Part shown: piece by piece, positions 614 to 55,790 of the stretch | Position numbering within the stretch: the stretch's first letter is position 1 | How the letters are laid out: the number at the start of each line of letters is the position of its first letter | Source of the DNA: Opitutus terrae PB90-1 | GTDB lineage: Bacteria; Verrucomicrobiota; Verrucomicrobiia; Opitutales; Opitutaceae | Direction of reading: 5' to 3' | Length of the DNA: 64,000 bases | NCBI RefSeq assembly: GCF_000019965.1 | Contig: NC_010571.1 | Coordinates: forward strand, 3,233,001 to 3,297,000 | Notes under the pieces: generated by a model | The model's input: the letters and a program-made list of their open reading frames with translations, nothing else | Told to the model about the DNA's origin: nothing | Database searches by the model: none | Position numbers and translations under genes: made by a program

Positions 614-620
614 GTTCAAT

Positions 621-707
621 CGTTCTCGTTATCGTTCTCTTTCTCGTTCTCCCCGATCGCCTCCGTTCGCTTGCGAGAACGAGAACGATTAAGAGAACGA
701 GAACGAT
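621..707. repeat. Inverted pair of degenerate hexamer arrays between pyrB and pyrC
   Basis: On the left, bases 621-651 are a run of 6-nt units of the form CGTTCT (CGTTCT, CGTTAT, CGTTCT, CTTTCT, CGTTCT). On the right, bases 676-707 are the complementary units GAGAAC GAGAAC GATTAA GAGAAC GAGAAC GAT. A loop of about 24 nt separates them. Transcribed with the operon, the two arms would form a long, purine/pyrimidine-biased hairpin between the PyrB and PyrC coding regions. It could be an mRNA-processing or attenuation element, or simply a mobile repeat. Confidence 0.85.
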
Positions 708-6691: not shown

Positions 6692-9445
6692 TCATGGCTG
6701 GACCGGGCGCGCCGGCGTGGCCGAACCCGCGAGCCACGCCGCGAGATCCGCGTCGCTCCGCAAGATCACGCCGTTCCGGTAGTCGGGCGCGAGCAGGCTG
6801 GCATAACTGGGCTCCACGAACCGGCGGCAGTGCAGCAGCACCTTGGCGTGCTGACCGGGCGCGCGGACCAGCCGGCCCAGCGCCTGGTTCACCTTGGTCA
6901 TGCCGGGAATCTGGTAAACGCGGCGGAACGCCGCGTCCCGCGAGAGCCCGGCGCGCGTCGCCTCGGCGAGCCGCGCATGCTGCACCGGATTCACCTCGGG
7001 CAGGGCAGGACCGACGACCAGCGCGTGCGACACGCGGCCGCCGAGCGCGTCGATGCTTTCGGCAAAGCTGGAGCCGAGCACGAGGAAGAGCGCCTGGCTG
7101 TCGCGCAACGATTCCTCGACCCACGCCGATTGCGCCGCGAGATCGCGGATCCGCGGCTGCAGCGCGACGCGCAGCTCCGGCGCGATCGTGGCGATCTCGC
7201 GCAGGATGGCGTCGGCGTAGGCGTAGGATGGGAAGAAGACGGCGACCGAGGGGCAAAGAAGCTGAGAGGCGAGAGTTGAGGGTTGAGAGCCGGACGACGG
7301 GACGGCAGCGGGAATGGATGCGGCGGAGGGCGTGGCCGGGCCCGCTGCGCGCGCCGCACGGTGCAGCGAGGCGATCGTGGCCGCGGTCGTGGTATAGTGG
7401 TGCGTGCGATGCTGAAACGTCGTGTCGACTCGCACGTCGCAGGCGATGTCGTAGCTGCCGTCGCGCCATGGCGTGTGGGCGCGCAGCAGCGTGGGCTGCG
7501 ATGCCTCGCGCGCTTCCTCGACGCGGAGCAACTCGGCCGCGCTGGTGAGCTGGCGAAAAAGTTTCTTGGTCGTGCGTTTGTTCAGTTCACCCAGCCGCTC
7601 GGGTGTGGTTGCCGCGGGGGGCGTTTTCTGCGGCGGCACGGGCGCCTCGCCCTGCAGGCCGCAGGCGGCGGCGAAGCCGTCGATCGGCGTGAGCGTGGCG
7701 CTTGCCAGCACGACGCCGCCGAATTCGCGCAGCGTCGCGCCGATCGCGGGCGCGGCATCGAGGCAGGTGAGCGCGAGCTCGCGGTCCTGCGGAGTCCACC
7801 ATAGCCGGGGCAGATCGGAGGCCGCGAGTTCGTCGACGAGCGAAGGAATCTGCCAGAGCAGATCCGCCACCTGCGGGCCGAGCGTCGCAAGATCGAGCGG
7901 CACGCTGGCCACCTGCTTCGCCACCTCGCCCAGCAGATCGCGCGCGTCGTCCTCCTGATCCGCGGTCAAACTGTGCGCGCTGCGGAGGTGGTCGAGGAAG
8001 TGGCACCAGTGGCCCCAGGCGTGCACGAGCGAGGCGTGCGGCCGGGTGCGATGCAACTCGTCGCGCACGGCGAACGCGTCGTTGGCCCTGAACGCGTGCG
8101 AATAGGCATCGGCGACGCGCGAGGGCAGGTTGTGCGCTTCGTCGAGCAGCAGCAGCGTGCGGGCGGGATCGAAGCCCGGCTGCTCGAAAAACAACCCGCG
8201 GTTGCGCGGCGCGAAGACGTAGTTGTAGTCGCCGATCCACACGTCGTTGAACGCCAGCGCCGCCCGCGTGATTTCGTAGGGGCAGATCCGCGCCGCGCGG
8301 CCGGCGGCGCGCAGCGTGTCGAGATCGCGCGGGTGCTTCTCGTCGAGGTAAAACCGCGCCAGTCCGCTCGTGGCCCAGCGGGCCTCCGCGTCGACGAGAT
8401 GGCTGCAGACGTCGCGCACGCAGTGGAACGTGGCGTTGATGCAGTGCTCGCTTTTGTTGCGCACGTGCCAGACCGCCACCGGGGTAGCGGCGGTCGCCGC
8501 CACGCCGGTGGCGGAGTTGAAGGGGGAAGTTGAAGTGGGAGGACCGGACGGGCTCCGGGCGTTGGGGCCTTCAACTTTACACGTTGCACGTTCAACGGCG
8601 GCTGACGGCGCTGCCGTCATGCCGCTGAGCGTGCGGACCACCTGGATCTGGCCGGTGGATTTGCTCGTGAGGTAAAGCGCGCGGTCGAAGTGTCCGCCGC
8701 GCAATTGGCCGAGCGCGAACTCCAGCAGCACGCCGGTCTTGCCGAAACCGGTTGGCGCTTCGAACAGCACCAGCGGATGGCGTTCGAACGTCGCGGTAAG
8801 ATCCGCCTGGGTGGTCTCCTGTCCCGGCCGCGGCACGGCAAAGGCCGGCCGGAACGTCAGGTGACGCAGCCGCTCGCGCGCGCGCAGCCGCAGATCGAGA
8901 AACTCGGCGACACGCGCGAGCTGAACGCGGAAAAACGTGTCGTCGGCGGGCGTGAGCGGAACGGTTTGCGCGAGTCCGCTGGCGACCTCGACGAAGACGA
9001 GCTCGCCGCGGACGGAATATTGATCATCGAGCAGGCGGCCCACCGGATTGGCGGGCGCGCGGGCGAGCACGAGGTAAGCAGCAAGTTGGGCGAAATAGTC
9101 CGGGTAGGCTGCACGCAGCTCGGTCTCGTCGGTGGGGAGGTCGCGCGTGACGGTTTTGATTTCGCGCAGCGTGATCGTTTCGCGCTCGCGCAGCAGTTGG
9201 TCGATGCGCCCGGTCAGTGTGAGGGTCCAGCCGTGGTGGACGATCCGCCCGGTGATGGGGATCTCGAATTCGGTTTCCGGCCGCTCGGCGGTGGCCTGCT
9301 CGCGCAAGGCGTTGTGCCAGTGCGTGCCGAGCTGGGCGCGCCAGAGCCCCTGCGCACCGCCGGTCGAATCCCGCGGCCCCGTGGTGAACGAGGAGAACTC
9401 ACCGACGCTCAGGCTGGCGGTGCGTTGGTCGAGATCGAAAAGCAT
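6692..9445 (-). CDS. DinG/Rad3-family DNA helicase with N-terminal PD-(D/E)XK nuclease-like domain
   Basis: A 917-residue predicted DNA repair enzyme. Residues 1-130 carry a RecB/Cas4-type nuclease signature: GRID (Asp82), REIK (Glu95, Lys97) and a QxxxY motif at 120-124. The superfamily-2 helicase follows, with Walker A APTGFGKT at 230-237, DEAH at 435-438, SATLTP, and a C-terminal motif VI-like QALGRLVR. Cysteines 335, 342, 347 and 388 (ICPY) lie between Walker A and DEAH, where XPD-like helicases hold a 4Fe-4S cluster, but the spacing is not canonical. Residues about 281-324 and 720-729 are encoded by intergenic-type repeats inserted in frame. It is the first gene of a minus-strand unit, and recO ends 78 bp upstream. 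Confidence 0.88.
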   Translation of the reverse strand: MLFDLDQRTASLSVGEFSSFTTGPRDSTGGAQGLWRAQLGTHWHNALREQATAERPETEFEIPITGRIVHHGWTLTLTGRIDQLLRERETITLREIKTVTRDLPTDETELRAAYPDYFAQLAAYLVLARAPANPVGRLLDDQYSVRGELVFVEVASGLAQTVPLTPADDTFFRVQLARVAEFLDLRLRARERLRHLTFRPAFAVPRPGQETTQADLTATFERHPLVLFEAPTGFGKTGVLLEFALGQLRGGHFDRALYLTSKSTGQIQVVRTLSGMTAAPSAAVERATCKVEGPNARSPSGPPTSTSPFNSATGVAATAATPVAVWHVRNKSEHCINATFHCVRDVCSHLVDAEARWATSGLARFYLDEKHPRDLDTLRAAGRAARICPYEITRAALAFNDVWIGDYNYVFAPRNRGLFFEQPGFDPARTLLLLDEAHNLPSRVADAYSHAFRANDAFAVRDELHRTRPHASLVHAWGHWCHFLDHLRSAHSLTADQEDDARDLLGEVAKQVASVPLDLATLGPQVADLLWQIPSLVDELAASDLPRLWWTPQDRELALTCLDAAPAIGATLREFGGVVLASATLTPIDGFAAACGLQGEAPVPPQKTPPAATTPERLGELNKRTTKKLFRQLTSAAELLRVEEAREASQPTLLRAHTPWRDGSYDIACDVRVDTTFQHRTHHYTTTAATIASLHRAARAAGPATPSAASIPAAVPSSGSQPSTLASQLLCPSVAVFFPSYAYADAILREIATIAPELRVALQPRIRDLAAQSAWVEESLRDSQALFLVLGSSFAESIDALGGRVSHALVVGPALPEVNPVQHARLAEATRAGLSRDAAFRRVYQIPGMTKVNQALGRLVRAPGQHAKVLLHCRRFVEPSYASLLAPDYRNGVILRSDADLAAWLAGSATPARPVQP
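7261..7288. repeat. Heptamer array inside the helicase gene
   Basis: Four 7-nt units, GCTGAGA GGCGAGA GTTGAGG GTTGAGA, match the array at 19204-19238 almost unit for unit. It encodes a low-complexity Ser/Pro/Gln/Leu stretch (about residues 720-729) between helicase motifs, so it is tolerated as a surface loop. Confidence 0.8.
8473..8596. repeat. Composite palindrome plus inverted heptamer arrays inside the helicase gene
   Basis: Bases 8473-8514 form a palindrome with 10-bp perfect outer arms (CCGCCACCGG / CCGGTGGCGG) and an inner GCGGCG/CGCCGC pair. Directly after it, 8515-8543 is a GTTGAAG-like array with a period close to 7. Bases 8569-8596 are four exact-length 7-mers of the complementary type (CTTCAAC TTTACAC GTTGCAC GTTCAAC). 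The block is in frame and encodes a Pro/Ser/Ala-rich loop at residues 281-324, including ATGVAATAATPVA. Confidence 0.85.
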
Positions 9446-9455
9446 GAGAGGGGAC

Positions 9456-9500
9456 CTACAGAACCTATAAGACTTACGAGACCGATGGGACTGGTGGGAC
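9456..9500. repeat. Five-unit 9-nt tandem repeat upstream of the helicase
   Basis: Five consecutive 9-mers end in AAC or GAC: CTACAGAAC, CTATAAGAC, TTACGAGAC, CGATGGGAC, TGGTGGGAC. The array lies 10 bp upstream of the helicase start, in the 78 bp between recO and the helicase. It may affect translation or serve as a protein-binding array; no ribosome-binding site is evident in it. Confidence 0.75.
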
Positions 9501-9523
9501 GGCGGGAAGTTGGGCGGAGTGGC

Positions 9524-16768: not shown

Positions 16769-19192
16769 CTACGCTTTCGCCTGCGCCGAGGGCGGCGTCT
16801 CGGCAACGGGCGGATACGACACGCGGCCGTGCAGCATGTTGAGCAGCGTGAACTGAAAACTGTTTTTGATCCGCGTGATCTCGACCAGGCTGAGCGGCGC
16901 TTCGTCGAGCTGCCCGTCCTCGATGCGTTCGCCGACGATGCGGTCGATCAGCTCGCTGAGCTGGGCGGGAGTGGTCTGCCGGAGCGAACGCGACGCGGCT
17001 TCCACGGCATCGGCGAGCGAGATGATCGCGCTCTCCTTGGTGTGCGGCTTGGGGCCGTCGTAGCGGAAGCTGGCTTCGTCGATCGCGGCGGGCGCGGCGC
17101 TGGGGAAGGGAATCGCGCTCTGCGGCTTGGCGGCGTCGTTCGCGGTGGGCTTGGCGGGGAAGGGCGCGCGGGACCGGTCCAGCGCACGTTGATAAAAATA
17201 ACGCACGAGCGTGGTGCCGTGATGCTGCTGGATCACGTCGATCACCGCGTTTGGCAAGTGATGCTTGTGGGCCAGTTCGGCGCCGTCGGCGACGTGCTGC
17301 TTGATGATGCGCGCGGAAACAGCGGGGTCCTCGTGCTGGTGCGGATTCACCCCGTCGCGCTGGTTTTCGCTGAAAAACGCCGCGTGTGCCGTCTTGCCGA
17401 CGTCGTGGAAAAGCGAGCACACGCGCGCAAGCAGCGGATTGGCGCCGATGGCGTTGGCCGCGTATTCGGCGAGCTGCGCGACGATGAGCGAGTGATGATA
17501 GGTGCCCGGCGCCTCGAGCTGCATGCGCCGCAGCAGCGGGTGGTTGTAGTCGGTGAGCTCGAGGAGGGTGATGTCCGTGGTCCGCTTGAACAACGACTCC
17601 AGCACCGGCAGCAGCCCGACGACGATCACACCGGTCACGAGACCGGTGATCAGTCCGGCGACGATCTGGCGGGAAATGGTTTCCCACGGGGTCTGGTCGG
17701 CGATGCCGATCAACGTGGCGAAGGCTGCCACCGTCAGGCCGCCGGCACAGGCGGCGCGAACGACCTTGCCGCGCTGACGCGCGTCGCGGCAGAAGAAGAT
17801 CGCCACCAGCGACGAGAGGAAGGTGAGCACCAGCAGGTCGAGCCGGTTGCCATAGATCACGCCGGTGAAGATCGAGATCAGCAGCGCCATGAAGATCGCG
17901 GAGCCCGCGTCGATCAGGATGGCCAGCAGCAGCGGTGCGATCACCGTCGGCGCCACGTAGGGCAGGGTCGAGGCCCAGGAGCCGTCGCGCACGAAGAAAT
18001 CGGCGCCACCGAACGAGTAGACCGCCCGCACCACGGCGAGATTGAAGATGACCACGAGCGCGAGCAGCCCGAGCCGGACGTTGCTGAGCAGGGTTTCGGG
18101 ATCCTCGATGCGGATGTAGATGATCGAGGCGAGCACCATGGCCAGCACCAGCAGCACGCGGCCGAAGAGCGTGAGATTCTCGTCGAGCTGCGTGTCGGTG
18201 TGCTCGCGCACGTATTTTCGGTGCGCCATCAGCATCTCGTATTGCTCGGGGGTCACCCGGTCGCCGGGCTCGATGATCGTCTGGCCGCGCACGACGCCGA
18301 TGGTGATCGGCGGCACCTGGGCGACGGCGGCCTCCTCGCGCTGCTGCGTGGCTTCGCGATCGAAGACCACGTTCGCCACGAGCCCGTTGCGGAACAGCCG
18401 GAACAACGCGAGCGAGGCGCTGCGCGAAAGCCCCTCGGCGGCGAGGTTCACGCGGAGAAACGTGAGCGCCTGTTCGAGCGTCTGCACCGGCCGCGGCGTC
18501 ACCTGCCCGTCAGGACGTGCGATCTGGAAAACCGTGATTCCGCCCGGCACGCTGCCCGCCAGCGTGCCGTCCTGCACGCCTTGCGCGTAGAGGTCGCGGA
18601 GCGCGGCAAAACCGTTTTCGAATAGCGCGGCGCGCGTCTTCGCGTCGCCGGCGTTCACGACGGCGGCGACATCGTCGAGATTCGCGGAGTAGGGCCCGCG
18701 GGTGTTGAAGGCCTCGACGATCGTGGCGAGTTCCTGCCGCTCCTCGGGCGTCGCCGTCCCGAGATTGAAGCCGCCCGGGCTGGTGGGATGCTTACGTTGG
18801 TCGAAGAGCTCCAATTGCGACAACAGGTCGAGCGCCGCCGCTTCGAAGCGCTGCAGCGGCTCGGCATCGAGCCGGTAAACCGGCGGCACGCGATCGCGCA
18901 CCTGCTCCCGCGCCACCCGCGTGCGCTCAGCGCTTTCGAAGGAGAACGAGCCGCTGGCGGTGACCCGCACCGTGGCGACTTGGTTGGGCATGACCGGCAG
19001 CATCGTGGTCGTGATGCCGGCTGAGCTGATGAGCAGAATCGTGGCGACGGTGAACAGGAAGATCAGCGCGGAGACGAAGCGGCTGCGGTCGAGAAATTCG
19101 CTGAAGGCGGACTGCGCCTGCGAACTCGGCGGGTGCGTGCGGCGTGCGTTGAGGCCGCCGACGAGGAGCTTGAACTGGTCGCGAACGGACAT
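16769..19192 (-). CDS. 7TM-HD family membrane phosphodiesterase (PgpH-like)
   Basis: An 807-residue inner-membrane protein. It has one N-terminal TM segment, an extracytoplasmic domain of about 370 residues (7TM receptor, HD-associated), seven TM segments (roughly 345-545) and a cytoplasmic HD domain with the metal motif HDVGKT (His596-Asp597). HHSLIV precedes that motif and HHG follows it. Characterised PgpH proteins hydrolyse cyclic di-AMP. It is directly upstream of phoH and HIT reading leftward elsewhere in bacteria, and the order HIT-phoH-pgpH on this strand, near ybeY, reproduces the common phoH-pgpH-ybeY neighbourhood. Confidence 0.92.
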   Translation of the reverse strand: MSVRDQFKLLVGGLNARRTHPPSSQAQSAFSEFLDRSRFVSALIFLFTVATILLISSAGITTTMLPVMPNQVATVRVTASGSFSFESAERTRVAREQVRDRVPPVYRLDAEPLQRFEAAALDLLSQLELFDQRKHPTSPGGFNLGTATPEERQELATIVEAFNTRGPYSANLDDVAAVVNAGDAKTRAALFENGFAALRDLYAQGVQDGTLAGSVPGGITVFQIARPDGQVTPRPVQTLEQALTFLRVNLAAEGLSRSASLALFRLFRNGLVANVVFDREATQQREEAAVAQVPPITIGVVRGQTIIEPGDRVTPEQYEMLMAHRKYVREHTDTQLDENLTLFGRVLLVLAMVLASIIYIRIEDPETLLSNVRLGLLALVVIFNLAVVRAVYSFGGADFFVRDGSWASTLPYVAPTVIAPLLLAILIDAGSAIFMALLISIFTGVIYGNRLDLLVLTFLSSLVAIFFCRDARQRGKVVRAACAGGLTVAAFATLIGIADQTPWETISRQIVAGLITGLVTGVIVVGLLPVLESLFKRTTDITLLELTDYNHPLLRRMQLEAPGTYHHSLIVAQLAEYAANAIGANPLLARVCSLFHDVGKTAHAAFFSENQRDGVNPHQHEDPAVSARIIKQHVADGAELAHKHHLPNAVIDVIQQHHGTTLVRYFYQRALDRSRAPFPAKPTANDAAKPQSAIPFPSAAPAAIDEASFRYDGPKPHTKESAIISLADAVEAASRSLRQTTPAQLSELIDRIVGERIEDGQLDEAPLSLVEITRIKNSFQFTLLNMLHGRVSYPPVAETPPSAQAKA

Positions 19193-19203
19193 GGGATCAG
19201 CTA

Positions 19204-19238
19204 GTTGAGAGCTGAGAGTTGAGAGCTGAGAGCCCGAG
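19204..19238. repeat. Heptamer tandem array between phoH and the PgpH-like gene
   Basis: Five 7-nt units: GTTGAGA GCTGAGA GTTGAGA GCTGAGA GCCCGAG. The array is immediately upstream of the PgpH-like start codon at 19192. The same unit type appears inside the helicase gene at 7261-7288. Confidence 0.85.
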
Positions 19239-19286: not shown

Positions 19287-20273
19287 TCAGCCTTTGGCTT
19301 CAGGCTCCGCCGCGCCGCTCATCGGGTTGCGGTAGTTGTCGTAAGCTTCGATGATCCGCTGGACGAGCGGATGCCGCACCACGTCCGCGCCGCTGAAGGT
19401 ATGGAACTCGATCCCGGGAATGTCGCGCAGGATGTGCCGGACCTCGAGTAATCCGGACTGCTTGGATCGCGGCAAGTCGATCTGCGTGACGTCGCCGGTG
19501 ACCACCATCCTCGATTCCTCGCCGAGCCGCGTGAGGAACATCATCATCTGCTCGGGCGTCGTGTTCTGGGCTTCGTCGAGGACAACGAACGCGTGCGACA
19601 GCGTCCGGCCGCGCATGTAGGCGAGGGGGGCGATCTCGATCACGCCTTTTTCCGTCAGCCGGGCGACATCCTCAGGATCGAGCATGTCGTGCAGCGCGTC
19701 GTAAAGCGGGCGCAGGTAAGGGAGGATTTTTTCGCGCAGGTCGCCGGGCAGGAAGCCGAGCGCTTCGCCGGCCTCCACCGCCGGGCGCGTGAGGATGATT
19801 CGCTGCACTTGGTTCTTGAGCAGCGCCGAAACCGCGGCGGCCATCGCGAGATAGGTCTTGCCGGTGCCGGCTGGGCCGATGCCGATCACGATCGGGTTGG
19901 CCAGGATCGTTTTCAGGTAGAACTTCTGCCCGAGCGTCTTCGGGATGATGCTCTTCCGATTCGTCGCGATCACCAACGGCTCGGCGAAGAGCTCGCGAAG
20001 CTGGTCGCCCTCGCCGCGGGCGAACGCATCGGTGATCCGATGAAAATCCGGGGTGCGGATTGACATGCCTTGGGTACGCGCATCGCTCAGGAACGTGAAC
20101 AACGCCTCCGTGCGGCCGAGGGCCTCGGCGGGCGCGTCGATCTTGAGGGCCGTGTCGCGCGACACGAGCTTCGCGCCCAGCGCGCGTTCCGCATACGCGA
20201 GGTTTTCGTCCCGGCCCGCGTAAAGCGCGTGCAAGTGGCGAGGCGAGGGGAAATGCAGGGTCTTGGTCGACAA
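19287..20273 (-). CDS. phoH: PhoH-family ATPase
   Basis: A cytoplasmic P-loop ATPase of 328 residues. The N-terminal KH-like region is followed by Walker A GPAGTGKT at 133-140, a VVLDEAQN Walker B region, and VTGDVTQID. PhoH/YbeZ proteins work with YbeY in RNA metabolism, and ybeY is about 7 kb away on the same strand. The TTG at 20273 is preferred: it is 2 bases past the HIT stop codon and gives the family-typical N-terminus (STKTLHFPS). Upstream in-frame sequence encodes the HIT C-terminus in another frame. Confidence 0.93.
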   Translation of the reverse strand: MSTKTLHFPSPRHLHALYAGRDENLAYAERALGAKLVSRDTALKIDAPAEALGRTEALFTFLSDARTQGMSIRTPDFHRITDAFARGEGDQLRELFAEPLVIATNRKSIIPKTLGQKFYLKTILANPIVIGIGPAGTGKTYLAMAAAVSALLKNQVQRIILTRPAVEAGEALGFLPGDLREKILPYLRPLYDALHDMLDPEDVARLTEKGVIEIAPLAYMRGRTLSHAFVVLDEAQNTTPEQMMMFLTRLGEESRMVVTGDVTQIDLPRSKQSGLLEVRHILRDIPGIEFHTFSGADVVRHPLVQRIIEAYDNYRNPMSGAAEPEAKG

Positions 20274-37713: not shown

Positions 37714-40482
37714 ATGCAGTCGCACGGCCCTAAGCGCGTATACACACCCCAGTCGCTAGAGTTTTGGTTCGACCGCCTGGAGCGGGATTGGGCGGACGCA
37801 TTCTCGGCCGAAGAGCTCGAAGAGGGGCGCCGGATTTACCGGGACGGGGAGGTGCGGGAGCTGGAACTGACGCCGAAGGACGCGATCATTCACCGGCGGG
37901 TCGAGAAAAAGGATGAATACGCCGTAATTGAATGGGGCACCGAGGGTTTGGCGGTGCGGTCGTCGACGACGGACCGGTCGCTGGCCCACGCGTTGGCGGT
38001 CGCCGGACTGCACGAGATCGAGGAGTTGGTGGCGGACGAGATTTCGCCGCTGCCGGGCGAGACCAAGCCGGCCGTGGACGCGGATCCGGCGGGCAACGGA
38101 CATGGGACGCTCAACGGAAAAGACGGAAATGCGCCCGCCAACGGCGGCGGCAATGGGCATGGTCTCGCGCCCAACGGTCACGGCACTGCCACGAACGGCC
38201 ATGGGAACGGGAACGGCCAGGGGAAATTGGCGGCCGGCGGGACCTTGGCGGCAGGGCAGGGTGACGGCGCGTCGGGGGCAGCCACCGGTCCTTCACGCAC
38301 GCTCGTCCTCGTGTTCAAGACGAAGACGGCGGGATTGACTTTCCAAGCGTTCTGGGCCGAGGCCGAGGGGAAGGCGCGCGTGCCCGCGTTGGGCACTCCG
38401 GCGCATGCCAATGGCAACGGCCACGTGACCAGTGCGGAGCGCGCCAAGCTCATCGGGCTCGCGGCTTACGCGCGGAAGGCGCACTTCCAATATCATCAGG
38501 AGACCGGGGTGTACCTGATGGAGTCGCTGGTAGAGATCCCGAACTTCCTGAAGACCGTGCTTCCGGCGTGGCGGAAGTTGTTCGTGATCGATCTCGACGA
38601 CAAGGCGGCGAACCTGCTGAAGGGCACGCGCACCGTGGAAATCGAAGCGGTGGCGGAAATGGTGGCACCCGCGAGCGGCTCGGCCGGTGAGGCGATGGGC
38701 AGCGGCACCGCGACGGGGGGAGCGGGGAGCGGCGCGCGCGGGATGGGCCTCGACCTGCGCTGGATTTTCCGGGCGGGAGAGCGGATGCTGACCGAGACCG
38801 AGGTGAACGCGTTGCTGAAGAAGGGCGGCGCGCCGGTGATCCTGCCGAACCTCGGGATCGTTTCGCTGCCGACCGAAAAATGGGAGTCGTTCCGCGCCTG
38901 GCGCGAGAACCTGGAGCAGACTCAGGCGGCGGGCGCGGCTTCGCCGTATCTTGTCTTTTCGCTGTTCAACGACGCGCGGCTGAAGCTGACGCTTTCGCCC
39001 GAAATCGACGCGTGGCGGCAGCGCGTGTTGAGCGCGCCCGAGGCGCCGCCGGAGCTGCCGGAGGTGTTGCGCCCTTACCAGCGGCGCGGCGTCGAGTGGC
39101 TGGCGCATCTCTGCAACGTGGGTTGCCACGGGCTGCTGGCGGACGAAATGGGTTTGGGCAAGACGCTGCAGGTGATCACGCTGCTGGCGACGCGACCGGA
39201 GGCCGACCGGCCGAGCCTGGTGGTGTGCCCGGCGAGCGTGGTGCCGGTGTGGCGCGAGGAAATCGCGCGGTTCCAGCCGGACCTGGCGGTTGACGTGCTG
39301 AAGACGGGCAACGATTTCACCAAACCGTCGAACGGACCGGTGCTGTGGCTCGCGAGCTACACGCAGCTGCGCAAGCATCGCGAACTGCTCGCGGCGCACG
39401 AGTTCGGCTACGTCATTCTCGACGAGGGGCAGTTCATCAAGAATCCGGACGCGAAGGTCACGCAGGCGTGCTTCGCGATTCGCGCGCGGCACCGGATCGT
39501 GTTGACCGGCACGCCGCTGGAGAACCGTCAGCTCGATCTTTGGAGCATTTTCCGTTTCCTGCTGCCGGGGCTGCTGGGCTCGCGGTCGAGTTTCGAGAGT
39601 GCGCTGCTCGTCGACCGGGCGGGCACGCTGGAGCGGCTGCGCGTGCAGCTGGCGCCGTTCATCCTTCGCCGGACCAAGAAGGAAGTGGCGCAGGAACTGC
39701 CGGAGAAGATCGAGATGGATCTGCTCTGCCCGCTGACCGACGTGCAACGCGCAGAATACGCGCGGATCTGCACGGAAGGCCTGCAGCGGTTGGGGGACGA
39801 CGTCGGCGCGGCGATGCGCGAAAAATCGTTTGGGTTCCTCGCGCTGCTCACACGGCTGCGCCAGACCTGCTGCGACCCGGACATGCTGCCGTGGCTCAAG
39901 TCGCCGCTGGCCGACTCGGGCAAGATCGCGCTGCTGATGGAGAAACTCGCTGAAGTGGTAAGCAGCGGGCACAAGGTCGTGATCTTTTCGCAGTTCGTGA
40001 TGTTCCTCGACCGCGTGCGCGCGGCGTTGAACGAGCGGTTCCCAGAGCTGCCGCATTTCGAACTCACCGGCATGACGCTGGACCGGTTGAAGCCGGTGCA
40101 GCAGTTCCAGAACGCGCCCGGCGCGGCGGTAATGCTCGTGTCGCTCAAGGCGGCGGGCACCGGGATCACGTTGCACGCGGCGGATTACGTTTTCCTGCTC
40201 GACCCGTGGTGGAATCCGGCGGTGGAGGCGCAGGCGGTCGATCGCGTGCACCGGATCGGTCAGACCAACACGGTGTTCGTGTATCGCATGGTGACCGCGG
40301 GCACGATCGAGGAGCGGATCCAGGCGCTGAAGGAAGAAAAGCGGGATCTGTTCGAGAAGCTCGTTGGCGGGCTCGGCGGCGACTTCGATCTCGGCCAGCA
40401 TTTCACTTCGCTGCGCGGGTTGGTGCAGCTGACGTCGCAGGTCGAGCCGGAGCCGGAGCTCGCGGCGTATACGGTCGACTGA
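37714..40482 (+). CDS. SNF2-family DEAD/H ATPase with Asn-Gly-His-rich linker
   Basis: A 922-residue Swi2/Snf2-type DNA-dependent ATPase. The Walker A lies in LADEMGLGKT (Lys483) and the Walker B is DEGQ at 570-573 (DEAH/DEGQ type). TGTPLENRQLDLWSIF and the C-terminal helicase region, with SLKAAGTGITLHAADYV and VDRVHRIGQT, follow. The N-terminal third is a SNF2_Rad54-like accessory region. It is interrupted at about 117-192 by a low-complexity linker rich in NGHG repeats. Its role is probably in chromosome or transcription remodelling like RapA/HepA relatives; the partner is unknown. Confidence 0.9.
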   Translation: MQSHGPKRVYTPQSLEFWFDRLERDWADAFSAEELEEGRRIYRDGEVRELELTPKDAIIHRRVEKKDEYAVIEWGTEGLAVRSSTTDRSLAHALAVAGLHEIEELVADEISPLPGETKPAVDADPAGNGHGTLNGKDGNAPANGGGNGHGLAPNGHGTATNGHGNGNGQGKLAAGGTLAAGQGDGASGAATGPSRTLVLVFKTKTAGLTFQAFWAEAEGKARVPALGTPAHANGNGHVTSAERAKLIGLAAYARKAHFQYHQETGVYLMESLVEIPNFLKTVLPAWRKLFVIDLDDKAANLLKGTRTVEIEAVAEMVAPASGSAGEAMGSGTATGGAGSGARGMGLDLRWIFRAGERMLTETEVNALLKKGGAPVILPNLGIVSLPTEKWESFRAWRENLEQTQAAGAASPYLVFSLFNDARLKLTLSPEIDAWRQRVLSAPEAPPELPEVLRPYQRRGVEWLAHLCNVGCHGLLADEMGLGKTLQVITLLATRPEADRPSLVVCPASVVPVWREEIARFQPDLAVDVLKTGNDFTKPSNGPVLWLASYTQLRKHRELLAAHEFGYVILDEGQFIKNPDAKVTQACFAIRARHRIVLTGTPLENRQLDLWSIFRFLLPGLLGSRSSFESALLVDRAGTLERLRVQLAPFILRRTKKEVAQELPEKIEMDLLCPLTDVQRAEYARICTEGLQRLGDDVGAAMREKSFGFLALLTRLRQTCCDPDMLPWLKSPLADSGKIALLMEKLAEVVSSGHKVVIFSQFVMFLDRVRAALNERFPELPHFELTGMTLDRLKPVQQFQNAPGAAVMLVSLKAAGTGITLHAADYVFLLDPWWNPAVEAQAVDRVHRIGQTNTVFVYRMVTAGTIEERIQALKEEKRDLFEKLVGGLGGDFDLGQHFTSLRGLVQLTSQVEPEPELAAYTVD

Positions 40483-40499: not shown

Positions 40500-40685
40500 G
40501 CGCAGTGGAAGTTTGAAGTGTAAAGTTTAAGGGGGCGGCGCAAGCACCGCTGTGCGGTGCAGCGAAAGTGAAAAGTTTAAGAGGGAGCCGTTACGGACCG
40601 CGGCGCGGCCGTTCCTTAAACTTCAACTTCAAATCTTAAGTTCGCGTCGCGTCCCGGCGCAACGCGCCGGGACGCGACGCGAAGC
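40500..40685. repeat. Inverted heptamer arrays plus palindromes downstream of the SNF2 gene
   Basis: Rightward units GAAGTTT GAAGTGT AAAGTTT at about 40508-40530 are repeated as AAAGTGA AAAGTTT at 40564-40579. Complementary units CTTAAA CTTCAAC TTCAAAT CTTAAG lie at 40615-40640. A GCGTCCCGGCG CAA CGCCGGGACGC palindrome ends the block (about 40650-40678). The arrangement predicts a large fold-back structure after the stop codon. The gap holds no gene. Confidence 0.8.
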
Positions 40686-48326: not shown

Positions 48327-49205
48327 ATGACCTTGATGGAATCCACTCGCCCGTCGTCCTCGTCCTCGGCCGCGGCTCTCGCTGCGGGGCCGGCCGCCTC
48401 ACGGCCGGCCTCGGCGCTCGTTGCCGCCCATGCCCGCGTGATCGTGCCGAATCCGATCATCGACATTCAGGGGCTCGATTTTTCCTACGGATCGCACCGT
48501 GCGCTGCACGAGATTTCGCTGCAGATCGAGGCGAAGCGCGTCACGGCGTTCATCGGCCCTTCCGGTTGCGGCAAGTCGACGCTGCTGCGCTGTCTGAACC
48601 GGATGAACGACCTGATCGACGGTGCGCGGGTGACCGGCGGCTCGATCCGGATCCACGGGGCCGACATCAACGCGCCGGCCGTCGACGTGATCGAACTGCG
48701 CAAGCGCGTGGGCATGGTGTTTCAGAAATCGAATCCGTTCCCGAAGAGCATTTACGAGAACATCGCGTTCGGGCTGCGGCTGCAGGGGATCAAGGATCGC
48801 GGGCGACTCGATGAGATCGTGGAAAAATCACTCCGCGGCGCGGCGCTGTGGGACGAGGTGAAGGACCGGCTGCACCTCAGCGGGCTCGGCCTCTCCGGCG
48901 GTCAGCAGCAGCGGCTGTGCATCGCGCGCGCGATTGCGGTCGAACCGGAGATCATCCTGATGGACGAACCGTGCTCGGCGCTGGATCCGCTCGCCACGGC
49001 CAAGATCGAGGAGTTGATCCAGGAACTGCGCGCGCGCTACACGATCGTGATCGTCACGCACAACATGCAGCAAGCGGCGCGCGTCTCCGATCACACGGCG
49101 TTCTTTTACCTGGGACGGCTGATCGAGTTTGGGGTGACCCGCGACCTGTTCACCAACCCCGCCAACGCCCAGACGGAGGCCTACGTGTCGGGGCGGTTTG
49201 GATGA
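48327..49205 (+). CDS. pstB: Phosphate ABC transporter ATP-binding protein PstB
   Basis: The ATPase subunit (292 residues). It has Walker [10 protein letters not shown] at 77-85, signature [10 protein letters not shown] at 189-198, and the Walker B region [11 protein letters not shown] near 211. The first 40 or so residues are Ser/Ala-rich and unlike normal PstB. They contain a palindrome (GGCCGGCCGC ... CGGCCGGCC at 48388-48410), so the N-terminal extension is probably repeat-derived. It is followed by a 114-bp gap before phoU. Confidence 0.95.
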
Positions 49206-49206
49206 C

Positions 49207-49312
49207 CAGCAAAGTCCAGAGCCAAGAGTCCAGAGCCCAGAGAATGAGCCATCTTCCCACCGACGACCTCCAAGTTATGTCTCTAGACTCTCAGCTCTAG
49301 CCTCTCGACTCA
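49207..49312. repeat. Inverted heptamer arrays between pstB and phoU
   Basis: On the left, AAGTCCA GAGCCAA GAGTCCA GAGCCCA GAG at about 49210-49241. On the right, complementary units CTCTAGA CTCTCAG CTCTAGC CTCTCGA CTCAC at about 49281-49312. The spacer is about 40 nt. In the transcript this would be a long imperfect hairpin that could reduce readthrough into phoU or stabilise the upstream message. Confidence 0.85.
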
Positions 49313-49319
49313 CTTTCCC

Positions 49320-50000
49320 ATGACCCACTTCGAAGACGAGAAGAACAAGCTGAAGGAGACGCTGCTCGCGATGGCGAGCCACGCGGAGTCCGCCGTGGCC
49401 CGCGCCATACGCGCGTTGGTCGAACGCGACGACTCGCTCGCCGCACAGGTCGACGAGGACGACAACATCCTCGATCAGTTTGAAATCGAGGTGGACGATC
49501 TCGCGATTCACCTCCTGGCGAAGGCGCCACTGGCGACGGACCTTCGCTCGATCACGGTGGCGATGAAAATTTCCCAGAACCTGGAGCGAGTCGGTGATGA
49601 GGCGGTGTCGATTGCGCGGCGTGTCGTCGAGCTCAACCGCGAGCCGCAACTGAAACCGTATGTCGATTTGCCGCGGATGGCGGCGATGTCGCTGGAGATG
49701 CTGCGCGACGCGATCACCGCCTTCATCGAGCGGCAGCCGGAAAAAGCCCGGGCGGTGGTCCCGCGCGACCAGGCGGTGGACGAATTGAACCGGCAGCTCT
49801 ACCGCGAGCTCTCCAGCTTCATGATCGAGCGCCCCGCCACGATTTCGCGCTGTCTGGGTCTGATGGCCGTGTCGAAGCGGCTGGAGCGGATCGCCGACCA
49901 CGCGACGAATATCGCCGAGGAAATCGTCTACCTTTACGAGGCGCGAGATATCCGGCATACTGGGTTGAAGGCGAATGAAATCGAAAATCCTGCTCGTTGA
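49320..50000 (+). CDS. phoU: Phosphate signalling protein PhoU
   Basis: A 226-residue two-domain three-helix-bundle protein. The metal-binding motifs appear twice, around EVDDLAIHLLAKAP with DLRSITVAMKISQNLERVGDEA, and around RCLGLMAVSKRLERIADHATNIAEE. It connects Pst transport status to PhoR, keeping the regulon off when phosphate is plentiful. It overlaps phoB by 26 bp. Confidence 0.96.
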   Translation: MTHFEDEKNKLKETLLAMASHAESAVARAIRALVERDDSLAAQVDEDDNILDQFEIEVDDLAIHLLAKAPLATDLRSITVAMKISQNLERVGDEAVSIARRVVELNREPQLKPYVDLPRMAAMSLEMLRDAITAFIERQPEKARAVVPRDQAVDELNRQLYRELSSFMIERPATISRCLGLMAVSKRLERIADHATNIAEEIVYLYEARDIRHTGLKANEIENPAR

Positions 50001-54768: not shown

Positions 54769-54846
54769 TGGGGCGGCCAACGGGACTTGAACCCGCGACC
54801 CCAAGATCCACAATCTTGTGCTCTAACCAACTGAGCTATGGCCGCC
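54769..54846 (-). tRNA. tRNA-His (anticodon GTG), CCA encoded
   Basis: All arms can be drawn. The extra G at -1 pairs with C73, the hallmark of tRNA-His, and the acceptor stem is GCGGCCA / TGGCCGC. The D arm is GCTCAGTTGGTTAGAGC, the anticodon stem-loop CAAGA TTGTGGA TCTTG with GTG at 34-36, and the T arm has GTTCAAG. The genomic CCA (54769-54771) is present. It is transcribed leftward towards the DUF218 gene. Confidence 0.95.
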
Positions 54847-54951: not shown

Positions 54952-55725
54952 ATGTCCCGGGTACGGCTCGTCACCTTCAACATCGCGCATGGTCGCGGGC
55001 TGGCGCCGATCCAGGGCCTGACCACGCCGCAGAAGCTGAAGGCCAACCTGCGGAAGATCGCGCGTTTGATCGGCGAGTTGAAACCCGACGTGGTGGCGCT
55101 GCAGGAGGTCGACGAGCGCTCGCTGTGGGCAGGCAACTTCGACCACCTCGAATATCTCCGGCTGCACGCGGGATTCGAGCACGCGGTGTTCGGCATCCAT
55201 AACCGCCGCGCGGGCTTGCTCAACCTCAGCTACGGCAACGCGCTGTTGTCGCGTTACCCGATCTCCTACAGCGAGACGGTGGTGTTTGGGCAGCGGCGGG
55301 TCGGCGAAAAAGGATTTCTGTTCGCCGAGATCGACGTCGCGGGCCGGGTCATGCCGCTGGTCAACGTGCACCTGCATTTCAGCTCGCGCGAGCACCGGAT
55401 CCGCCAGATCGGCCGGCTGCTGGCCTGGCTGAGGGAAAAACAGGAACACTCGCGGGGCCGCTGGCGCGTGCCGGCGATCGTGTGCGGCGACCTCAACAAT
55501 CCGGGCACGAGCGCGGACGCCACGGCGGCGTTGCTGAGTCACCTCTCGGATTACGGCGAGTATGTGCTGCACCCCACGAAAGGCCGTACGTTTCCCTCCC
55601 CGCTGCCGGGGCGGCTGCTGGATTTCGTGTTCCTGCCGGGCGCGTGCAATGCGAGCCACTGCGAGATCGTGCGCTGCTTCCTCTCGGATCACCGGCCCGT
55701 GGCGGTGGACTTCACGCTGCCGTAA
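54952..55725 (+). CDS. Endonuclease/exonuclease/phosphatase (EEP) family protein
   Basis: A 257-residue metal-dependent hydrolase with the EEP fold. Motifs: RLVTFNIAHG (about 5-14), ALQEVDE with the metal Glu (about 48), VCGDLNNPG (about 182) and SDHRPV at the end. The family acts on nucleic acids, inositol phosphates or sphingolipids, so the substrate cannot be read. No signal peptide, so it is cytoplasmic. The ATG at 54952 is 106 bp from the tRNA. Confidence 0.9.
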   Translation: MSRVRLVTFNIAHGRGLAPIQGLTTPQKLKANLRKIARLIGELKPDVVALQEVDERSLWAGNFDHLEYLRLHAGFEHAVFGIHNRRAGLLNLSYGNALLSRYPISYSETVVFGQRRVGEKGFLFAEIDVAGRVMPLVNVHLHFSSREHRIRQIGRLLAWLREKQEHSRGRWRVPAIVCGDLNNPGTSADATAALLSHLSDYGEYVLHPTKGRTFPSPLPGRLLDFVFLPGACNASHCEIVRCFLSDHRPVAVDFTLP

Positions 55726-55729
55726 GGGA

Positions 55730-55790
55730 GGAAAGTGCGAAGTGGGAAGTAACAAAGGGAGGAGCGTACACGGGCGAGACGCCCGTGGCA
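55730..55790. repeat. Purine heptamers and a CGGGCGAGACGCCCG palindrome
   Basis: AAAGTGC GAAGTGG GAAGTAA (55734-55754) resembles the heptamer family. A perfect ACGGGCG-AGA-CGCCCGT palindrome follows at 55770-55786. Both lie between the EEP gene and trpA. Confidence 0.75.

Follow-up and report, generated by a model that had tools for sequence, protein, structure and literature searches.

Several short arrays with a repeat period of 7 nt lie scattered over one stretch of the Opitutus terrae PB90-1 chromosome, some with a complementary array close by, and the locus raises the question of what such arrays are, why they face each other and how they arise. The window, that is, the whole stretch of DNA analyzed, is 64,000 nt long (positions 3233001-3297000 of the single 5,957,605-base contig that constitutes the genome). 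The original prediction listed six sites, and all six contain period-7 sequence, though its quality varies, being short or degenerate at 7263-7289, 8515-8541, 40508-40531 and 55733-55750. The arrays and arms in the window, with their strands, are as follows.

19203-19235 (+), the array first cited, clear and unpaired, of AGTTGAG/AGCTGAG units, in the gap between the predicted genes 19287-20273 (-) and 16769-19192 (-).
49213-49242 (+), left arm, a clear array of AGTCCAG/AGCCAAG units, 7 nt past the stop of 48438-49205 (+).
49281-49306 (-), right arm, CTCTAGACTCTCAGCTCTAG..., 13 nt ahead of the start of 49320-50000 (+), with a loop of 38 nt.
40508-40531 (+), left arm of AAGTTTG/AAGTGTA/AAGTTTA units, downstream of the stop of 37714-40482 (+).
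40564-40583 (+), the units of the left arm present once more in direct orientation, AAGTGAAAAGTTTAAGAGG.
40615-40641 (-), right arm, CTTAAACTTCAACTTCAAATCTTAAGT, partner of 40508-40531.
8515-8541 (+), arm of a degenerate inverted pair in the helicase gene 6692-9445 (-), at about residues 302-310.
8568-8597 (-), its partner arm, CTTCAACTTTACACGTTGCACGTTCAACG, at about residues 283-293 of the helicase, in a linker that varies in length among relatives, ahead of a DEAD_2 match (residues 329-453).
7263-7289 (+), unpaired array, CTCTCAACCCTCAACTCTCGCC in the sense reading, at about residues 719-728 of the helicase, in a second variable linker just ahead of a Helicase_C_2 match (residues 734-886).
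55733-55750 (+), short unpaired array, AAGTGCGAAGTGGGAAGT, 7 nt past the stop of 54952-55725 (+).
616-651 (+), period-6 arm of CGTTCT units in the junction 614-709.
675-707 (-), partner arm of the period-6 pair in the same junction.

Complementary arrays had been proposed at 8515-8596, 40508-40640 and 49210-49312, and an inverted partner better than chance was present at all three. Pairs were scored as ungapped inverted matches inside the 110-nt flank of an array and compared with shuffled flanks, of which 0/100 were as good as 49213-49242 with 49281-49298, 0/100 as good as 40508-40531 with 40615-40623, and 1/100 as good as 8515-8541 with 8568-8576. A fourth pair, absent from the prediction, joined 616-651 to 675-707 with a period of 6 (0/100 shuffled flanks as good). 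For the arrays at 7263, 19203 and 55734 no convincing inverted partner was found within 110 nt on the right-hand side, and unpaired arrays such as these may have decayed partners. The array at 19203-19235 reads CTCTCAGCTCTCAACTC in the transcribed sense, about 10 nt ahead of the start codon. Those at 8515-8596 and 7263-7289 are situated within the predicted gene 6692-9445 (minus strand), not in intergenic DNA, and the stretch 8515-8540 was read by Tandem Repeats Finder as having a 13-nt period. An Rfam search of the window returned a single match, a tRNA at 54772-54845 (-), far from the arrays.

Since the intergenic excess within the window is small (at a score of at least 9, lag 7 gave 2 arrays and lag 6 gave 4) and the sites are few, the case for above-chance occurrence is carried by a genome sample, comprising 140 stretches of 20 kb spread evenly across the first 5.19 Mb (2.8 Mb, of which 5 kb were masked). 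Across 1482 intergenic stretches totaling 357 kb, 113 arrays scored at least 9 at lag 7, as against 4 in dinucleotide-preserving shuffles, and among the lags tried (2-24) those that were not multiples of 7 gave at most 38 arrays each. Lag 7 was also the top lag of 1-30 in the whole sampled sequence when at least 18 of 24 positions had to match. With at least 19 matches, 103 segments of 24 positions were recovered at lag 7 and 44 at lag 14, compared with at most 10 per lag at those lags of 1-30 that are multiples of neither 3 nor 7, and no more than 34 at lags divisible by 3. Period-7 arrays therefore exceed random frequency genome-wide, as judged from the 2.8 of 5.96 Mb scanned, and 7 is the commonest short intergenic tandem period. 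The proposal that unit sequence drifts while unit length stays constant held in part: the unit length stayed at 7 as the sequence changed, but the length is not strict, because the same paired layout was found with periods 6, 9 and 10. Inverted pairs with an arm period of about 9 were seen at L155 15282, L046 2054 and L123 11249, with ACACGAAA-, AACGAAGGG- and CACGCGAAT-like units. An ATGAGAG array of about 33 units in L093 (genome position 2318469) was much longer than others in the sample, and at about 4.46-4.52 Mb of the genome (L151, L152) long intergenic gaps were densely filled by heptamer arrays and further periodic sequence, for example CCACAGATGAACACGGAT and CCACGGAACACACGGA.

The tendency toward inverted pairs was examined in the genome sample together with 80 loci of related genomes, named mostly Opitutaceae, Opitutae or Verrucomicrobia and centred on homologues of the helicase gene 6692-9445. 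The 335 arrays have at most 670 flanks, and one pair can count from both arms; on this basis 56 flanks contained an inverted partner scoring at least 10, vs 1 shuffled flank, and 45 vs 0 did so at a score of at least 12. Arrays thus come as inverted pairs well above chance, as originally proposed, and 54 distinct pairs scored at least 9. Two early counts were set aside as too coarse, since pieces of one interrupted array score as direct partners: a within-gap count of 77 pairs, 44 of them similar (20 inverted, 24 direct), and a partner count in which 37 of 157 arrays had an inverted and 47 a direct partner, with about 5 expected by chance.

The pairs were localized with respect to genes, which were called with a simple purpose-written coding-score caller, such that start codons and distances are approximate. 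At a score of at least 10, there were 42 inverted pairs, of which 29 lay at co-directional junctions, 3 at convergent junctions (two of them being one locus), 1 at a divergent junction and 9 in predicted genes, some of these nine being plain GC-rich repeats. Co-directional genes hence flanked 29 of the 33 non-coding pairs, while intergenic length alone would lead one to expect 61% co-directional, 13.5% convergent and 25% divergent placement. Likewise, an inverted match scoring at least 10 was present in 101 of 463 co-directional gaps in the O. terrae genome, with 10.2 expected from shuffles, and in 5 of 83 divergent gaps, with 2.5 expected. The pairs filled gaps of 60-180 nt, beginning a median of 7 nt past the upstream stop and ending a median of 10 nt ahead of the downstream start, and the 26 period-7 pairs in co-directional gaps of this size had a median stem of 25 nt and a median loop of 44 nt. 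Arrays of the main family also had a fixed orientation. Read in the sense direction, they were AG-rich near stops (9 vs 5 CT-rich) and CT-rich near starts (25 vs 2 AG-rich; p = 0.0002), although, given the approximate start calls, some arrays scored as lying before a start may partly be coding. Other families leaned to the same polarity without reaching significance (p = 0.14). Within genes, CTCA was present in the sense reading of 45 of 161 arrays and TGAG in none, as expected since TGAG arrays contain stop codons.

The two arms of a pair have a common unit family and polarity. Arrays were present close to both ends in 22 co-directional junctions measuring 60-200 nt. Of these, 19 had inverted arms of the same family, one had direct arms and two had unrelated ones, and when arms were re-paired among these junctions an average of 9.1, and a maximum of 14 in 300 trials, were inverted. 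Moreover, among pairs scoring at least 10, the leading arm was the GAG arm in all 14 GAG pairs and the GATT arm in 10 of 13 GATT pairs, with the three exceptions located in L039, L102 and L220. The order of units, in contrast, was not mirrored between arms. With array bounds set independently of the partner, permuting the units of one arm left the scores of 68 flanks essentially as they were, with 48 observed vs 49.4 permuted at a score of at least 10, and 24 vs 23.3 at a score of at least 16. A first test had pointed the other way (of 22 pairs, 15 scored above and 3 below their permuted versions; p = 0.002), but choosing the register from the observed order had introduced a bias, and the signal was gone on retest, where re-choosing the register gave 0.731 vs 0.725. 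A small number of very good pairs (L231, L208) do look mirrored.

These relations bear directly on the main rival to the reading that we prefer below, namely that the pairs are functional hairpins of operon mRNAs, which would bring a stop near the next start or stabilize the upstream message. The concentration of non-coding pairs between co-directional genes, along with the fact that they span nearly the whole 60-180 nt junction, accords with such a role, and the RNA folds of two of the four window pairs were far better than those of shuffles (z -3.67 for 40505-40645 and -5.55 for the junction 614-709), with that at 49213-49242/49281-49298 moderately so (z -1.94). However, the in-gene pair at 8515-8597 folded no better than shuffles (z only -0.79), and the same was true of the unpaired array at 19203-19235 (z 0.09). 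Stems of at least 20 pairs that spanned the spacer were slightly commoner in 463 co-directional gaps of the genome than in shuffles (0.253 vs 0.203), but those of at least 12 pairs were as common in shuffles (0.441 vs 0.434). Minimum-free-energy folding was dropped as a general test, the 463 gaps hardly differing from shuffles (0.350 vs 0.312 at 16 pairs or more), and was replaced by the ungapped inverted matches, which do differ. The sense-strand mismatches in the 26 co-directional period-7 stems comprised 10 G-U and 27 A-C (p = 0.008), opposite to the expectation from RNA pairing. As G-U pairs were not favored and unit order was not mirrored, the selection on helical structure that had been suggested for the arrays finds no support at the RNA level, and we regard the mRNA-hairpin explanation as unlikely.

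Several unrelated unit families coexist in the genome, including AGTTGAG/AGCTGAG/AGTCCAG, GATTTTC, CGGTGGA, GGAGTTC and AAGTTTA, and variation is concentrated at particular unit positions. In 70 arrays of the first of these families (TGAG/AGAG arrays), neighboring units mismatched at frequencies of 0.33 and 0.25 at two positions and 0.03-0.08 at the other five. Across all families, 64 of 68 arrays with at least 3 mismatches used fewer unit positions than random placement would, a figure inflated by the double counting of each changed unit and by possible shared descent of arrays, which affect the across-array position bias less. The consensus units AGTTGAG, GATTTTC and AAGTGAC lack GGG and, by eye, the main consensus units do not have the four runs of at least three G of a potential G-quadruplex; TGAGGGT variants and GATGGGT units do carry GGG. 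Conserved core positions, and the fixed polarity of the main family relative to gene ends, would be expected if the arrays were multi-site docking tracts for a putative DNA- or RNA-binding protein that reads the core of each unit. Nevertheless, the coexistence of several unrelated cores in one genome, and of different cores at the same junction in different relatives, makes this explanation highly improbable.

The unit families recur across genera, even in Nostoc. In a search of 288 genomes with fixed-tetramer patterns, intended as a phylum census, the GATT pattern occurred in 106 (15 matches in the O. terrae genome vs 0 in its reversed control, although some genomes scored higher in the control). 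The AGAG pattern occurred in 76, but it matches its reversed control so often (139 vs 62 in the O. terrae genome) that it serves poorly as a phylum census. For close GATT pairs on opposite strands, the plus-strand match came first in 7 of 7 among the matches listed (by eye; gaps of 5-54 nt). The plasmid match that initially pointed to Nostoc was not significant (E 0.8). Searched with the GATT pattern, a Nostoc plasmid gave 25 matches vs 8 reversed, and its GATT pairs were convergent in 3 of 3 cases, with the same arm order and gaps of 139, 139 and 58 nt.

Matching junctions in relatives, identified through one-way protein BLAST, were bare in some relatives and filled in others. For the junction 614-709, 11 of the 19 relatives with the same gene pair had 3-12 nt and 8 had 69-375 nt; arrays were present in 5 of these 8 long junctions, made of AAATCCG, GTGACGA, CAAGTTC, TTTGGAG and AAGTNNC-like units. 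For the junction 9446-9523, 26 of 61 relatives had at most 18 nt, overlaps included. Arrays occurred in only 4 of the 61, indicating that most long versions of this junction are without a detectable period-7 array, and in L206 and L261 they formed pairs of other units. In the window, the junction 9446-9523 itself, which is bare in many relatives, has a repeat of about 10 nt (GGTCCCAT-, GGTTCTGTAGGTCCC-like). A paired junction of 118 nt in L231 corresponded to 3 nt in L270 (helicase 81% identical), and these two have another array in common that is nearly unchanged. Between L228 and L240 (helicase 91%), which like all compared relatives are different species, one junction measured 200 vs 121 nt, many whole TCATTAG-type units apart, and a second differed by 50 nt of array.

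A similar picture emerged inside the gene 6692-9445, which Pfam matches (DEAD_2, Helicase_C_2 and a PD-(D/E)XK nuclease) identify as a helicase. Its arrays occupy two linkers of variable length, and protein matches in many relatives break at these two positions. The first linker reached at least 24 residues in 28 of 81 sequences, 15 of which had marked period-7 DNA of various units, not counting the window's own degenerate pair; in the second linker, 3 of 7 had marked period-7 DNA. Other palindromes, for instance GTGTCAC...GTGACAC, repeated in L212, were seen in the first linker of L210, L212, L249 and L255. Rickettsia palindromic elements are a single conserved palindrome inserted in-frame in many genes. 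The helicase inserts are likewise in-frame, but they are of many unrelated units and so fall outside that definition.

That junctions are bare in many relatives could also reflect the insertion of small mobile elements moved by a transposase, as REP elements are by RAYTs. The genome contains Y1 transposase-like genes (4 PF01797 matches, 3 of them over the cut-off) and many families of non-periodic hairpins, some with dozens of copies, and O. terrae has been reported as highly enriched in GTAG repeats in the portion of PMC3733652 consulted. REPs resemble the arrays in being short, palindromic, intergenic and abundant in O. terrae, but are described there as tagged copies of whole elements, while heptamer pairs share arm units and often not the loop. 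In 10 of 18 heptamer pairs of the genome no other site covered the loop, which counts for tolerated tracts and against mobility, whereas in the remaining 8 of 18 the loop was covered by 1-8 other sites, which counts the other way; in a search of the sampled half genome, no convincing source of copied loops was evident among the matches listed. Further, only 2 of 54 pairs had GTAG in or beside their arms, and the same junction had differing unit families among relatives. A REP-like element is thus less likely, notwithstanding the eight covered loops, and we consider it rather doubtful as the source of the pairs. Non-periodic hairpins such as GTAGGGC...GCCCTAC were observed at L031 2260, L165 17734, L081 1884 and elsewhere, and for some of them the sample contained about 20 or more full copies.

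Instead, we put at about an even chance that the arrays are hairpin-seeded, slippage-grown and mostly tolerated tracts. A short inverted repeat would first arise or insert where extra DNA is tolerated, either in tight junctions of co-directional genes or in linkers between protein domains. Each arm would then grow and turn over during replication as whole units, mostly 7 nt long, were gained and lost. Independent growth of the arms, as proposed here, would account for arms that agree in unit family and in the way they face while differing in unit order, and 7 nt was proposed as the preferred slippage step by Mrazek and colleagues (2007), as reported in PMC4679880 and PMC4692102. The bare junctions of relatives, the shared arm family, the independent unit order and the differences in unit number all fit the tolerated-tract reading. 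We infer that the filled junction is the gained state, that a hairpin was the seed, that replication slippage is the growth step and that the arrays have no dedicated function. Some observations go against this reading: slippage alone does not predict variation at fixed unit positions, and it explains neither the recurrence of unit families across genera and in Nostoc nor their polarity relative to gene ends. A quite improbable alternative is that convergent heptamer pairs with a fixed core and free positions are written into junctions by an enzyme or an RNA-guided process dedicated to this task, which would draw on a few cores (GATT, TGAG, AAGT and others) common across phyla, such that a junction could be rewritten with another core in another lineage.

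The inverted form had been thought to set these arrays apart from known heptamer repeats, a distinction that falls away given published inverted heptamers in Xanthomonas (PMC4692102) and in the Nostoc trnL intron (PMC4476775, PMC3488679), all described here from parts of those articles. In Xanthomonas, GGGAATC-type units, mostly four per array, form 70 and 75 convergent pairs in two genomes (Rehm et al. 2015, PMC4692102). They are intergenic, with few between divergent genes, and lie downstream on the coding or upstream on the non-coding strand; GGGGA(C/T)T repeats of Nostoc are treated alongside them. Common to that type and to ours are the 7-nt unit of fixed and variable positions, the convergent pairs, the scarcity at divergent genes and the polarity. 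As far as the excerpted text of PMC4692102 goes, however, that type has one G-rich unit per genome, with which a G-quadruplex idea is connected, whereas O. terrae has many units and a main consensus free of GGG. Also distinct from the type as described in that text are the pairs that fill junctions left bare in relatives, the variety of units at a single junction, and the arrays inside protein linkers. In the Nostoc trnL intron, Class I (TDNGATT) and Class II (NNTGAGT) heptamers of the P6b stem pair as a hairpin; their copy number changes, and one class has repeatedly been replaced by the other (PMC4476775, PMC3488679). Degenerate heptamers pairing as two arms are common to both systems, and the cores GATT and TGAG recur in two families here, but the Nostoc repeats lie inside one group I intron and ours outside the trnL intron, at numerous gene junctions as well as within protein linkers.

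Direct heptamer repeats offer a further comparison. The TAACTGA repeats of Beggiatoaceae are intergenic, occur at many loci, mostly near start codons, and are patchy across phyla; in the part of PMC4679880 consulted, unlike here, almost all are direct (169 sets, one indirect) and a single unit is favored. Borg tandem repeats, as the excerpt of PMC9879509 presents them, also arise anew between and inside genes, the in-gene ones giving disordered stretches, but are perfect head-to-tail copies, unlike our arrays. Among the entries listed by a literature search there was no report of these arrays in Verrucomicrobiota. With the Xanthomonas and Nostoc precedents, the kind of repeat was already known, and what is added is the variety of units that a single genome carries, the way the pairs fill junctions, the comparison with bare junctions and the occurrence of different units at one place, together with negative tests for mirrored unit order and for G-U pairing.

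For annotation, the comparison means that peptides such as LNSQLST in the helicase linkers of Opitutaceae are translated repeat DNA. More broadly, the arrays raise the questions of what fixes the length at 7, what makes the arms face each other, and whether junctions and linkers merely tolerate such DNA. Heptamer repeats have been noted for decades in separate bacteria, with a different unit and a different suggested role in each case. The single layout found here, which recurs with many units in one genome and with units that differ among relatives at a given junction or linker, argues for a general process over a function specific to any one unit.
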